A stretch of 64,000 nt of DNA from Blastocatellia bacterium (lineage in GTDB: Bacteria > Acidobacteriota > Blastocatellia > Chloracidobacteriales > Chloracidobacteriaceae). Both the position numbers and the translations under genes were made by a program. Below are positions 7,686 through 33,865 of the stretch, one piece after another (the first letter of the stretch is position 1; every line of letters starts with the position of its first letter). The stretch spans positions 62,001 to 126,000 of the forward strand of contig JAIBAN010000009.1 in the NCBI GenBank assembly GCA_019695185.1, given 5' to 3'. Under the pieces are notes generated by a model. It saw nothing but the letters and a program-made list of their open reading frames with translations, was not told the origin of the DNA and made no database searches.

Positions 7686-8249
7686 TTATTCTTTGCGGCT
7701 GCGGAGTTCCGCCAGCATGTTGCAAAACAATGCGCCCTGTTCGATTGCATCCTCCAGCGCCAGATGGGTATGGGGCAACCCTTCGTCAAACCAGCGGGAA
7801 GGCATAATCCGCTTGGTGGTTTCCTTGAAGTCGGTTCCCAGCATGGTCATGGCCATGGTTTTGATGTCGAGCGAAATAAAGGTAAACGGACTTTCCCCGG
7901 TAAACCGAATCAGGTACCAGTTGACAAAAGTAAAATCAAAACCTGCCGGATATGCGACGAAAACCGGTTTTCCCGGCAGTGCTTTCAGCCAGTCACGGTA
8001 TTTGAGCATGGCCTGTTCAGGGTCCTGTACATCCTTGCGACAGGCTTCCCATGCTTCGGGTTGGGTCTTCCACCAGTCCATTGTCAGCGGATGGCCGGTT
8101 GCTCCGGGAAGGGTTTCCAAATTGGCGGTAAAGGTGCTGACCAGGGTTTTGTCCGGCCAATAGGCAGCGGAACCAATACTGAGCATTGAATATGGGCCGG
8201 GAATCGGCCCATCGGCTTCCACATCGGTGCTTACATAAATTTCTTTCAT
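7686..8249 (-). CDS. DEDDh-type 3'-5' exonuclease family protein
   Basis: About 187 aa from the ATG at 8249, where the conserved N-terminal strand begins ([15 protein letters not shown]). Motif I is D-x-E (DVEADGP), a central [10 protein letters not shown] fits ExoII, and the C-terminal H-x(4)-D is in [13 protein letters not shown]. These are the DnaQ/RNase T-type DEDDh residues. Members degrade single-stranded DNA or RNA ends; substrate not predictable here. An upstream in-frame extension to 8336 encodes heptamer-like sequence and is unlikely to be translated. The downstream neighbour of the methyltransferase gene, about 90 bp apart. Confidence 0.8.
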
Positions 8250-19751: not shown

Positions 19752-19880
19752 GCCAGGACTGAGGGCTGAGGACTGAGGCCCGAGCATTTTCACTTGCGGC
19801 AGGTCACTGTTTCCTGAGGCTGGTGAGGGGTATTCGTACAACCAGGTCCTCAGCCCTCAGTCCTCAGTCCTCAGTCCTTC
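19752..19880. repeat. inverted heptamer element (AGGACTG/CAGTCCT)
   Basis: Left arm 19752-19779, right arm 19848-19880. A GGGCTGA variant unit occupies a matching inner position in both arms. Confidence 0.85.
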
Positions 19881-20019: not shown

Positions 20020-23000
20020 ATGCTACGTCTCGACAAGCTGGAAATTCGCGGTTTTAAGAGTTTTTGTGACTACACTGAAGTCCTCTTTCATGAAGGCGTG
20101 ACCGCCATCGTCGGCCCCAACGGATGCGGAAAATCAAACGTCATGGATGCCATCACCTGGGTGCTGGGTGAGCAATCCGCCAAAAATCTGCGCGGCGGCA
20201 AGATGGAAGACGTGATTTTTAACGGCACCCGTGACCGAAAACCGGTCGGAATGGCGGAAGTCCTGCTGACCCTCACCGCCGTGGTTGACATTGAACCCAA
20301 CAAACGTGACGAAGAGGAACTGTCCGCCGACGAACTGGTCGTTCCTGAAATTGACATTGAGGCAATTGAAGACACCCTGGAAGCCTCAACGACTGATTTA
20401 CCGGTTATTTCCGATAGTTTTGGGGAATCTGCCGCTGGTGAAACTCAGTCCTCAGTCCGAGAGTATCAGTCCTCAAAGAAAAAACCTCCCCGCCGGTACC
20501 GGATTCCGACGCTGGCCGCCGGTGAAAAAATCACCATCGGGCGGCGGCTCTATCGTTCCGGAGAAAGTGATTACCTCATCAATGGCCGCACCTGCCGTCT
20601 GCGGGACATTCTTGATTTTTTCAGTGGAACCGGCCTCAGCCGCGCCCATTACGCCATTATCGAGCAGGGCCGGATCGGGCAAGTGCTCTCTTCCAAACCA
20701 CATGACCGGCGGGCGTTGATTGAGGAAGCCGCCGGCATCAGCAAGTTCAAAGCCAAGCGGCACACGACCGAACTCAAACTGGAAAGCACCCGTCAGAACC
20801 TTTCCCGGCTCAATGACCTGGTTTCCGAAATCGAACGACAGGTTGGCAGCCTCAAACGACAGGCCGCCCGTTCACGCCGTTATGTTGCCCTGCGTGATGA
20901 AATGCGAGTCGTCGCCCGTGTCTTTTTTGCCAAAAGCGCTGACCACGTGCTCGAAACCCATGCCGCCATCCGGGCTGCCCTGACGGCTTCCGCCGAACAA
21001 TTGGGCACGTTGGCCGAACAGCTCCACGGCTGTCAGGTCGAGAGCGCCCAGGCACGGACAGCCGCCCGTGAGGCTGAAGCCTTGCTGGCCGAAGAACGGC
21101 GCAAAGCGGCTCAGATTGAACTGGAACATGACCGCGCCCTCAATCTGCATGTTCATCTCAAGGAACAAATCGAACAAACCTCCGCCCGCCGGAGCGAGCT
21201 TTCTGCCGAAGCCGGACGCTACGAGGAACGGCGGCGGCTGGTCGAAAAGGAAATCGAACGCAGCCGCCGGGAAAACGAAGCCCTGGCCACGGAATTGAGT
21301 GGGGATGAACAGCGGTTGAGCACAGTGGAAGCCCGTTACCGGGCGGAGTATCAGGCCCTCCAGGAATGCGAAAAAGCCCAGGAGCAGACGCGCTCGCACC
21401 TGCTCGCACATGTCACCCGCACCGAGCGCTTGCGCAGCCTCGAACAACAGCACCGCGATACCGAAGCCCGGTTGGTGCGTCAAACAGCCAATCTGGAAAG
21501 CGAAAGCGTCCGTGCCGCCGAACGCCAGACCCACGCCGAAGAGGAACTGAAGGCCAGCCTTTCCGAACAACAACAGATTCAGTCCCAGGCCCAGCGCCTG
21601 CGGGAACAGCTTTCCGCTGCCGGTGCAGCCGTGACCCAGGCCACTGAAAATGTCAAACAGGCCCAGGGAAGGTTGAATGAACTGCAGCGCGAACGCAGCC
21701 GCACCGAAGACCGGTTGGGCAATCTGCGCAAACTGGACGACCATCACGCCTATTTTTCAAGCACGGTCCAGACGTTCTTTAACGAAGCCAATAAAATACC
21801 GGGTTTGCATGTGGTCGGAACGCTGGCGGATTTTCTGAACGTTCCGAGCAGCCATGAATCACTGGTTGAAAATGTTTTGGGCGAACGTTTACAGGCGATT
21901 GTGGTACCGACGATTGATGATGCGGTCACCGCCACCACCTGGTTGAATCAAAAAAAAGGCGGACGAGCCACTTTTCTTGTGACCGGCATGCACGGCGGGC
22001 AAACAGAGGGTTCAGGGTTCAGGGTCCAGGGTTCAGGGGAAGGAGCATTGGGAGCAGGCACCCAAAAGTCCAACATTCCCCTTTCCAGCTCTCGCCTTCT
22101 CGATTTTCTGGGCCTGCCGGAACATCTGGCCGCCACCTTTGCTCGTGCCCTGCCCCAATTGGCCGAAGCCGGGCTTGCTCCTGATTTGAATCAGGCGCTG
22201 GAACGTTCCCTGACCGAACCGAAACGGCTTTTTCTGACCGCCGAAGGCGAACAGGTCTTTGCCGGTTCGCTGGTTGTGACCCGTGGCGGCGAGCGTCCGC
22301 CCACCAGCGTGCTGGCCCTCAAACGCGAAATCAAGGAACTGACCAAGCAGGTGGCCACCCTTGGGAAACAGGTTGAAACCGCCACCGAGGCCCTGGAAAC
22401 CGCCAATGCCGAGCTGGCTGAATTCCGCAGCGAACGGCAAACCCTCGACAACCAGCTTCGTGAAACGGAAACCAAGTCCGCTGCCTTGGGAGTCGAGGTC
22501 CAGCAACGGCGGCGCGAAGTGGACCGGGCCGTTCAGCACCTGAATGTGATTGCCTCCGAACGGAACCAACTGGACCAGGAAAAGAAACAGTTGGCTGAAC
22601 GGATGAAGCAAAATTCGGCGGAACTGGTGCGGGCCGAGGAACATCACTCCGCGCTGGAAGAACAACTGGCCGCAGCGGCCCAAAAACTGGCGACGCTCAA
22701 GCCCACCGTTGAAAAAATTTCGCACGAACTGTCCGAAATGCGCTCTGCCGTAGCCGCCCGGCTGGAGCGGCGGCGGGCGGCCTCCACCGAACTCCGGCGG
22801 CTGGAACACGAACGCCAGGAAGCCGAACGCGCCCGCAGTCAATCAGAATTTGAACAGGTGGAAACCGCCGGACGGCTCGAACAGTTGAAAAAACAACTGG
22901 CCGAATGCGAAGCCCAGAGTTCGCGGCTGGCCAAAGACCGCAGCCAATCCAGTGAAATTGTGACCAAAGCCGTGACGCATTTGGAAACCACCCGCACGGC

Positions 23001-23916
23001 TGCGGACGCACTTGAAACGCTGCTCAACGAACTGCACAGCCGCGAAAGCGGCTTACGCGAAGCACGCACCGCACAGGAAGTCGAGGACGCCCGGCTGACC
23101 TCGGAATTTGAACACCTTGCCCGCACCTGCCGCAACGAACTGGGCGAACCGCTTGAAACCGTCCGCGCCGGAGTCAAATCAGGCACACCGGAAACACTGG
23201 AACCTTCCGAAAGTCCGGCACTCAAGGAAACAGCTCCGACTTTCAAATGCGAGGACTTTCTGGAACATTCCCTGGATGATTTGGCCGAACGCCTGGAAGA
23301 CCTGCGTGGCAAAATCGAGGCGCTGGGTCCGGTCAATATGCTGGCACTGGAAGAACTTGAGGAATCCGAAAAACGGCAGGAATTCCTCGTCCGGCAACGG
23401 GCCGACCTGCTGGCCGCCATTGCCGCAACCGAAGAAGCGCTCAAGGAAATCCGCCGTCACACGAAACAGCGGTTCCTTGATGCCTTCACCCAAATCAATA
23501 CCAACTTCACAAAGATTTTTTCCGAACTGTTTGGCGGTGGACGCGGTGAAATGGTTTTGATTGACCAGGAAGACGTGCTGGAAAGCGGCCTCGACATCAT
23601 CGCCCAACCACCCGGCAAACGGCTGCAATCGGTGCTGCTCCTTTCCGGCGGAGAAAAAGCCATGGCGGCTCTGTCGCTGGTCCTGGCCATCTTCCGCTAT
23701 CGTCCCAGCCCTTTCTGTATCCTGGATGAAGTTGACGCTCCGCTCGACGATGCGAACATCGGGCGGTTTACCCATAAAATCACCGAAATGAGCATGCAAA
23801 CTCAATTTCTGGTCATCACGCACAGCAAAAAGACCATGGAGGCTTCGCAATCCATCTACGGCGTGACCATGCAGGAACCGGGCGTTTCGAAATTGCTGTC
23901 GGTGAAGTTTGATTGA
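20020..23916 (+). CDS. smc: chromosome segregation protein SMC
   Basis: Condensin-type ATPase, 1298 aa from the ATG at 20020, chosen because AAGGA lies 8 nt upstream and the family's MxRLxKLEIRGFKSF N-terminus begins there. Seen: Walker A GPNGCGKSNVMDAI, two long Ala/Glu/Arg-rich coiled coils (about 265-550 and 760-1080), a hinge (about 580-750, LHVVGTLADFLNV), the signature LLSGGEKAMAALSL and Walker B FCILDEVDAPLDD. It is longer than the usual 1150-1200 aa. An extra segment of about 75 aa in the head (about 95-170) and another in the hinge (about 657-690) both contain translated heptamer repeats. No scpA or scpB is adjacent. Confidence 0.96.
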   Translation: MLRLDKLEIRGFKSFCDYTEVLFHEGVTAIVGPNGCGKSNVMDAITWVLGEQSAKNLRGGKMEDVIFNGTRDRKPVGMAEVLLTLTAVVDIEPNKRDEEELSADELVVPEIDIEAIEDTLEASTTDLPVISDSFGESAAGETQSSVREYQSSKKKPPRRYRIPTLAAGEKITIGRRLYRSGESDYLINGRTCRLRDILDFFSGTGLSRAHYAIIEQGRIGQVLSSKPHDRRALIEEAAGISKFKAKRHTTELKLESTRQNLSRLNDLVSEIERQVGSLKRQAARSRRYVALRDEMRVVARVFFAKSADHVLETHAAIRAALTASAEQLGTLAEQLHGCQVESAQARTAAREAEALLAEERRKAAQIELEHDRALNLHVHLKEQIEQTSARRSELSAEAGRYEERRRLVEKEIERSRRENEALATELSGDEQRLSTVEARYRAEYQALQECEKAQEQTRSHLLAHVTRTERLRSLEQQHRDTEARLVRQTANLESESVRAAERQTHAEEELKASLSEQQQIQSQAQRLREQLSAAGAAVTQATENVKQAQGRLNELQRERSRTEDRLGNLRKLDDHHAYFSSTVQTFFNEANKIPGLHVVGTLADFLNVPSSHESLVENVLGERLQAIVVPTIDDAVTATTWLNQKKGGRATFLVTGMHGGQTEGSGFRVQGSGEGALGAGTQKSNIPLSSSRLLDFLGLPEHLAATFARALPQLAEAGLAPDLNQALERSLTEPKRLFLTAEGEQVFAGSLVVTRGGERPPTSVLALKREIKELTKQVATLGKQVETATEALETANAELAEFRSERQTLDNQLRETETKSAALGVEVQQRRREVDRAVQHLNVIASERNQLDQEKKQLAERMKQNSAELVRAEEHHSALEEQLAAAAQKLATLKPTVEKISHELSEMRSAVAARLERRRAASTELRRLEHERQEAERARSQSEFEQVETAGRLEQLKKQLAECEAQSSRLAKDRSQSSEIVTKAVTHLETTRTAADALETLLNELHSRESGLREARTAQEVEDARLTSEFEHLARTCRNELGEPLETVRAGVKSGTPETLEPSESPALKETAPTFKCEDFLEHSLDDLAERLEDLRGKIEALGPVNMLALEELEESEKRQEFLVRQRADLLAAIAATEEALKEIRRHTKQRFLDAFTQINTNFTKIFSELFGGGRGEMVLIDQEDVLESGLDIIAQPPGKRLQSVLLLSGGEKAMAALSLVLAIFRYRPSPFCILDEVDAPLDDANIGRFTHKITEMSMQTQFLVITHSKKTMEASQSIYGVTMQEPGVSKLLSVKFD
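20445..20478 (+). repeat. CAGTCCT units translated within smc head domain
   Basis: Three CAGTCC-type units, partly separated, are read in frame as TQSSVREYQSS (about residues 142-152) within the extra head segment. Confidence 0.8.
22008..22039 (+). repeat. GGTTCAG array translated within smc hinge
   Basis: Four GGTTCAG/GGTCCAG units are read in frame as GSGFRVQGSGE (about residues 664-674), in the orientation without stop codons. Confidence 0.9.
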
Positions 23917-23917
23917 T

Positions 23918-24074
23918 TGAGAATTGAGAATTGAGAATTGAGAATTGAGAATTGAGAATTGAGAATTAAAACACTTGGGTTGGCCGTGATAACCTGCGCT
24001 TGCGCATTCATCCAGCCTGTAACCGCTTGATGTTCAAACATATCCTCTCAATTCTCAATTCTCAATTCTCAATT
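23918..24074. repeat. inverted heptamer element (TGAGAAT/ATTCTCA)
   Basis: Seven perfect TGAGAAT units (23918-23966) begin just after the smc stop. The facing arm of three to four ATTCTCA units (24046-24074) ends about 25 bp before the OsmC gene; spacer about 80 bp. Confidence 0.95.
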
Positions 24075-33723: not shown

Positions 33724-33865
33724 AGAAGTCCGGGGAGTCCGGGGAGTCTGGGGAGTCGAAAACCTGACAGGGTGACAGGGTAACAGGGTGACAAGGTGAT
33801 AAAGTGACAGTTTCCTGATGCCCCAGACTCCCCAGACTCCCAAGACTCCCAAGACTCCCAAGACA
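33724..33865. repeat. inverted 9-mer element with 8-mer core
   Basis: Left arm of about three GTCCGGGGA-type 9-mers (33726-33758), a middle run of 8-mers (GTGACAGG type, 33763-33813), and a right arm of CCCAAGACT-type 9-mers (33821-33863). It abuts the stop of the kinase gene. Same architecture as the heptamer elements but other periods. Confidence 0.85.

Follow-up and report, generated by a model that had tools for sequence, protein, structure and literature searches.

Several families of short tandem repeats described in other bacteria resemble the repeats analyzed here. Heptamers form the commonest long simple-sequence class in bacteria, a prevalence credited to polymerase slippage by Mrazek et al. 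(2007), as cited in PMC4679880 and PMC4692102. In Xanthomonas and Nostoc, GGGNATC heptamers (GGGGA(C/T)T) are dispersed in arrays of typically ~4 units (Rehm et al. 2015, PMC4692102). The arrays, 7-11% of which are intragenic in Xanthomonas, are depleted in ORFs and between divergent genes; their G-rich strand is the sense strand up to 50 bp from stop codons and the antisense strand in the 50 bp preceding ORFs (PMC4692102). Each Xanthomonas genome holds 70-75 convergent pairs, and G-quadruplexes have been suggested for these heptamers (Rehm et al. 2015, PMC4692102).

TAACTGA direct repeats are distributed patchily across Beggiatoaceae, Cyanobacteria, and Bacteroidetes (MacGregor 2015, PMC4679880). 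One strand stops all reading frames and the other is open, and the repeats are translated in ORFs that include an RNA polymerase β′-like gene; arrays overlap stop codons, lie mostly just 5′ of start codons, and include one indirect repeat (PMC4679880). The survival argument for heptamers in the open orientation was already stated in that work (MacGregor 2015, PMC4679880). Rickettsia palindromic elements, as the studies of Ogata (2000, 2002) are summarized in PMC10969869, are non-tandem palindromes of ~100-150 bp with a conserved sequence, translated in frame within genes for unrelated proteins at fold-compatible sites. They are the classic example of selfish DNA that enters genes in frame.

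Judged by analogy with these three systems, the heptamers of the Blastocatellia bacterium studied here are known in kind and make an unusually clear new case. They share with GGGNATC the dispersion, the polarity at gene edges, the convergent pairs, the ~4-unit length, and the depletion in genes and divergent gaps, but differ in their units (ACTGAGG, AATTCTC, AACCCTG, and rotations), in the presence of several families in one genome, and in that the in-gene arrays are analyzed here as translated loops. Two of the units, GGACTGA and GAATTGA, lack GGG tracts and would form no three-tier G-quadruplex, whereas GGGTTCA could form one. Units without G-tracts obey the same polarity, which argues against the G-quadruplex as a general cause. 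As with TAACTGA, open arrays are translated in ORFs, arrays in the stop orientation lie at ORF ends, and the distribution is patchy; unlike TAACTGA, the units are others, and the arrays occur mostly at gene 3′ ends and in convergent pairs. The likeness to the Rickettsia elements lies in the in-frame entry at tolerated sites (a receiver-domain element, an insert in an M20 peptidase, and the SMC loops), and the difference in the tandem, mostly solo heptamers, whose pairs have unrelated cores (87/95). New are the several unit families, two without G-tracts, under one polarity rule, a whole element in frame within a receiver domain, and an smc gene struck at two sites.

Two heptamer arrays within the smc reading frame

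The smc gene, an essential gene that organizes the chromosome, lies within the window (the whole 64,000-nucleotide stretch of DNA that was analyzed) and is present as a single copy, with one match in the 8.33 Mb, 222-contig genome. The gene carries one array in the head region and one in the hinge, and is flanked on both sides by convergent pairs:

19755-19778, + strand: left arm of the upstream pair, GGACTGA units, intergenic, 5′ of smc
19848-19878, + strand: right arm of the upstream pair, TCAGTCC units, convergent with the arm at 19755-19778
20020-23916, + strand: smc, ORF for the chromosome-partition SMC ATPase, 1298 aa, Pfam SMC_N and SMC_hinge
20444-20475, + strand: head-linker array, CTCAGTC units, ACTGAGG family, C-rich strand sense, open, aa 143-156
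22007-22038, + strand: hinge-loop array, GGGTTCA units, AACCCTG family, G-rich strand sense, open, aa 663-673
23916-23967, + strand: left arm of the downstream pair, GAATTGA units, 3′ of smc
24046-24074, + strand: right arm of the downstream pair, TCAATTC units

The downstream left arm begins on the final base of the stop codon of smc (TGA, 23914-23916). Membership among the SMC ATPases is borne out by an intact Walker A (GPNGCGKSN), the hinge, the signature (LLSGGEK), and Walker B (FCILDEVDAPL), and the protein would presumably work normally with its arrays.

The head array reads CTCAGTC CTCAGTC CGAGAGT ATCAGTC CTCA, ~4.5 units in register with a degenerate third unit that marks it as decayed, and is translated as ...ETQSSVREYQSSKK... 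The hinge array consists of AGGGTTC repeated 4.6 times with one T>C change; its translation, EGSGFRVQGSG, falls inside Pfam SMC_hinge (598-727). The translated SMC stretches spanning the arrays are ETQSSVREYQSS and EGSGFRVQGSGEGALGAG, and both arrays are solo. The heptamers are translated in the smc frame in the stop-free orientation, as the earlier note had claimed: both arrays are open and their complements carry TGA. Its further point that the array lengths keep frame holds as well, but follows from the open ORF and adds no separate evidence.

Comparison of the lag-7 score with those of 2000 codon-shuffled smc genes sets the hinge array (score 19) far above the maximum reached by chance (10). 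The periodicity of the head array is not significant by the same measure (score 8, with 8 or more in 88/2000 shuffles); periodicity alone was dropped as proof of this array, and family identity was used instead. Its exact 14-mer, TCAGTCCTCAGTCC, occurs in 0/2000 codon shuffles, and no heptamer is commoner in the genome than its unit, a 16-mer of which gives 2358 matches versus 0 when reversed as a control.

The head linker and hinge loop are present in most Acidobacteriota relatives, with variable length (54-142 aa for the head region and 97-124 aa for the hinge region), variable sequence, and no heptamers. The nearest relative compared, at 62% protein identity, has both linkers without heptamers, and a genome-contig search for close relatives returned none above 41% identity. 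In Nitrospira, for instance, the linkers are much shorter (54 versus 116 aa for the head linker region). The two segments, which the earlier note described as absent from typical SMC proteins, are not newly inserted. On the sequences compared, both linkers would already have been variable before the heptamers came, and the heptamers would have colonized existing linkers. Alignment with the smc of G003, a genome of the same family, makes the two regions 7 and 6 aa longer here; these values were rejected as insertion sizes, the loops being too divergent for such a reading. Unusual length and variability of the two linkers is a property of most Acidobacteriota relatives (L002-L040), independent of heptamers.

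AlphaFold2 models place both arrays in low-confidence segments. In the hinge fragment, the lowest-confidence stretch spans residues 121-143, with pLDDT below 50 at 121-139 and mostly above 90 outside the stretch, and the array corresponds to fragment residues 124-134. The head fragment, a weaker model (mean pLDDT 75), falls below 50 at residues 131-150, overlapping the array. The two sites are thus predicted to be disordered loops in otherwise folded domains.

Heptamer families and their polarity at gene edges

Stretches totaling 1.486 Mb of the 8.33 Mb genome (G000) were sampled, 806 kb of the genome served for a survey of periods, and 982 genes were called with a simple, purpose-written codon-bias finder. 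The survey revealed 250 exact arrays of period 7. Period 9 followed with 48, and most other periods had 1-13. Three families dominate: ACTGAGG (GGACTGA/TCAGTCC), AATTCTC (GAATTGA/TCAATTC), and AACCCTG (GGGTTCA/TGAACCC). The 1.486 Mb sample holds 439 arrays, ~1 per 3.4 kb, in sequence that is 86% coding. Array length differs among arrays, typically 4-5 units with a mode of 4, and a second family gives 1778 genomic 16-mer matches versus 3 for its reversed control. One GGGTTCA array is very long, at least 17 units (L149, ~8019-8150, contig C9), with a short convergent partner arm. Period 9, with the unit AAGACTCCC, ranks second in enrichment genome-wide, and a cluster of period-9 and period-8 arrays (AGTCCGGGG, TGACAGGG, CCCAAGACT) occupies positions 33727-33864 of the window.

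G003 has 2228 matches to the GGGTTCA 16-mer and almost none to GGACTGA. Neither heptamer set occurs in the 7/7 small-genome relatives examined in genus g3, and two genomes of the same class (G021 and G029) have GGGTTCA arrays. The same units are patchy across distant genera of the class (G021, G029, G025, G014).

Array placement follows a strict polarity. Within 50 nt of gene ends, the G-rich strand of the three families is sense at 3′ ends (151:3) and antisense at 5′ ends (76:0), with the same polarity in G003 (41:6 and 14:1, respectively). Gene 3′ ends predominate among array positions, and divergent gaps are avoided (17/285 arrays versus 138/790 gaps). A stop codon falls within a heptamer array in 65/982 called genes, mostly in the TGA-bearing GAATTGA and GGACTGA families. 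All 95 inverted pairs are convergent, with the G/purine-rich strand first and a fixed polarity within each family. Both arrays at the edges of a gap point into it, so that a pair amounts to two arrays at the two edges of one intergenic gap.

The pairs also bear on an improbable alternative, in which the arrays are MITE- or REP-like transposons moved by a transposase, with the heptamer arrays as terminal inverted repeats. Convergent pairs of fixed polarity, a weak sub-terminal core sequence common to some AACCCTG elements, and Y1/RAYT-type transposase genes in the genome would fit such elements. The spacers, however, mostly 40-115 nt long, are unrelated to one another in 87/95 pairs; direct repeats in the flanks of pairs, sought as target-site duplications, are no more frequent than in shuffled sequences; and solo arrays are common (249 single arrays versus 95 pairs). 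A MITE identity was rejected for having neither target-site duplication nor a conserved core beyond the weak one in part of the AACCCTG family. A REP/RAYT system was likewise rejected, the heptamers lying near only 3/8 Y1 transposase loci, without enrichment and adjacent to none. Extended palindromes in the pair flanks give no general signal, being confined to two pairs with 14-15 nt palindromes, and inspection of the pair arms by eye revealed no mirrored unit variants of the kind left by hairpin-templated correction.

Arrays inside other genes

Despite the 86% coding sequence, only 23/439 arrays fall within genes at a depth of 60 nt or more. Among exact in-gene arrays of at least 13 nt, open and stop orientations stand at 27:2 (16:1 for ACTGAGG and 11:1 for AACCCTG); AATTCTC has none of this length in genes, and control heptamers have 0-1. 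Neither TCAGTCC nor GGGTTCA closes any frame, and their complements carry TGA. The open strand is C-rich in ACTGAGG and G-rich in AACCCTG, which indicates that the reading frame, not strand polarity, sets the in-gene orientation. Most of this bias follows of necessity: on the wrong strand, an array of three or more units closes all frames. In part it is also built into the calling of ORFs, and by itself it is no evidence of selection.

Two loci reveal entry into coding sequence at finer detail. In a hybrid histidine kinase, a complete convergent element is translated within a receiver domain:

L175:3640-3781 (contig C34): complete convergent element translated in the receiver domain of a hybrid histidine kinase

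With the element in place, Pfam Response_reg matches in two stretches; after its excision, the match forms one stretch covering 1-110 of 111. In the stop-bearing right arm, CGA replaces the in-frame TGA expected from the unit. One loop of an M20 peptidase contains a composite insert built from GGGTTCA, TCAATTC, and TCAGTCC units, and the G001 orthologue (65% identity) lacks it. Arrays also occur in PKS, NRPS, CHAT, LarC, A2M, peptidase, kinase, and other genes, with the same peptides recurring. Among these, the megaenzyme genes for PKS and PKS/NRPS (L146:7806-9196 and L227:2403-14408) have several arrays apiece, located in inter-domain linkers and loops. The earlier note's proposal that the elements invade coding sequence and survive only in open frame gains from the many unrelated genes affected, the 27:2 ratio, the lost TGA of the receiver domain, and the M20 insert.

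The deviations from the unit in in-gene arrays comprise 16 synonymous and 36 non-synonymous changes, a synonymous share (16/52 = 0.308) close to the expected 0.315, and mismatches are more frequent in in-gene than in intergenic arrays (5.6% versus 2.2%, p = 8e-5). Translated heptamer peptides decay without amino-acid constraint. No array of the AATTCTC family, with SILNSQF as its open peptide, lies in a gene (0/97 versus 16/215, p = 0.004). This would be expected if proteins tolerated flexible peptides only, and suggests filtering by tolerance at the protein level, not recruitment; alternatively, this AT-rich family may insert at different places.

These data make it unlikely that selection recruited the smc arrays and retained them as flexible SMC linkers with a function at the protein level, which the earlier note had offered as its other reading. 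Both arrays do lie in linkers, the retained peptides SPQSSVL and GSGFRVQ are flexible, and the exclusion of SILNSQF would suit a choice of peptide. That family bias is equally explained by tolerance, however, and the lack of synonymous bias, the recurrence of the same peptides in unrelated proteins (PKS/NRPS, CHAT, LarC, peptidase, A2M, and kinase), and the linkers of relatives, similar in length, unrelated in sequence, and older than the arrays, all stand against selection for linker function.

Origin and persistence of the in-gene arrays

We favor, with a probability of roughly 0.78, the explanation that heptamers from gene edges occasionally enter coding sequence and persist in tolerant loops, including the smc head and hinge. 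Arrays normally reside at gene edges, their G/purine-rich strand running outward from the nearest gene. Occasional copies would land in coding sequence, or form there through copying and slippage. An in-gene array would persist only if the strand read is stop-free, the net length is in frame, and the protein can accommodate a short flexible peptide in a loop at that site; two such sites would be the head linker and the hinge loop of smc.

The evidence for movement between loci comes from shared variants. The same 24-mer with two variant positions recurs at one intergenic site and in a pair of unrelated genes, one of which has it twice, and composite arrays of several families occur within one loop. 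Together they favor block copying between loci over independent slippage; on these few common variants, we infer that blocks are copied between loci and that the smc arrays may have arrived in this way from elsewhere in the genome. Formation of each array in place by local slippage from a chance seed, with no inter-locus copying, accords with the slippage origin credited to bacterial heptamers and with the variable copy numbers, but it is a doubtful account of a few specific units recurring hundreds of times with fixed strand polarity, of composite arrays of different units in one loop, and of shared variant blocks. Under the favored explanation of entry from gene edges, slippage probably sets the copy number after an array has arrived.

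A broader proposal is tentative: an array-writing process that depends neither on unit sequence nor on G-quadruplexes could act with fixed polarity at gene edges in unrelated phyla, the in-gene copies being its leakage. Protein loops made from non-coding repeats are rarely caught in bacteria, and this one genome offers many recognizable cases in genes both essential and non-essential. The strict polarity of units without G-tracts makes the spreading agent testable by comparison of sister strains. If the proposal is true, the array-writing process would be a source of new disordered protein loops, in the Acidobacteriota described here and in the Xanthomonas and Nostoc of the literature.
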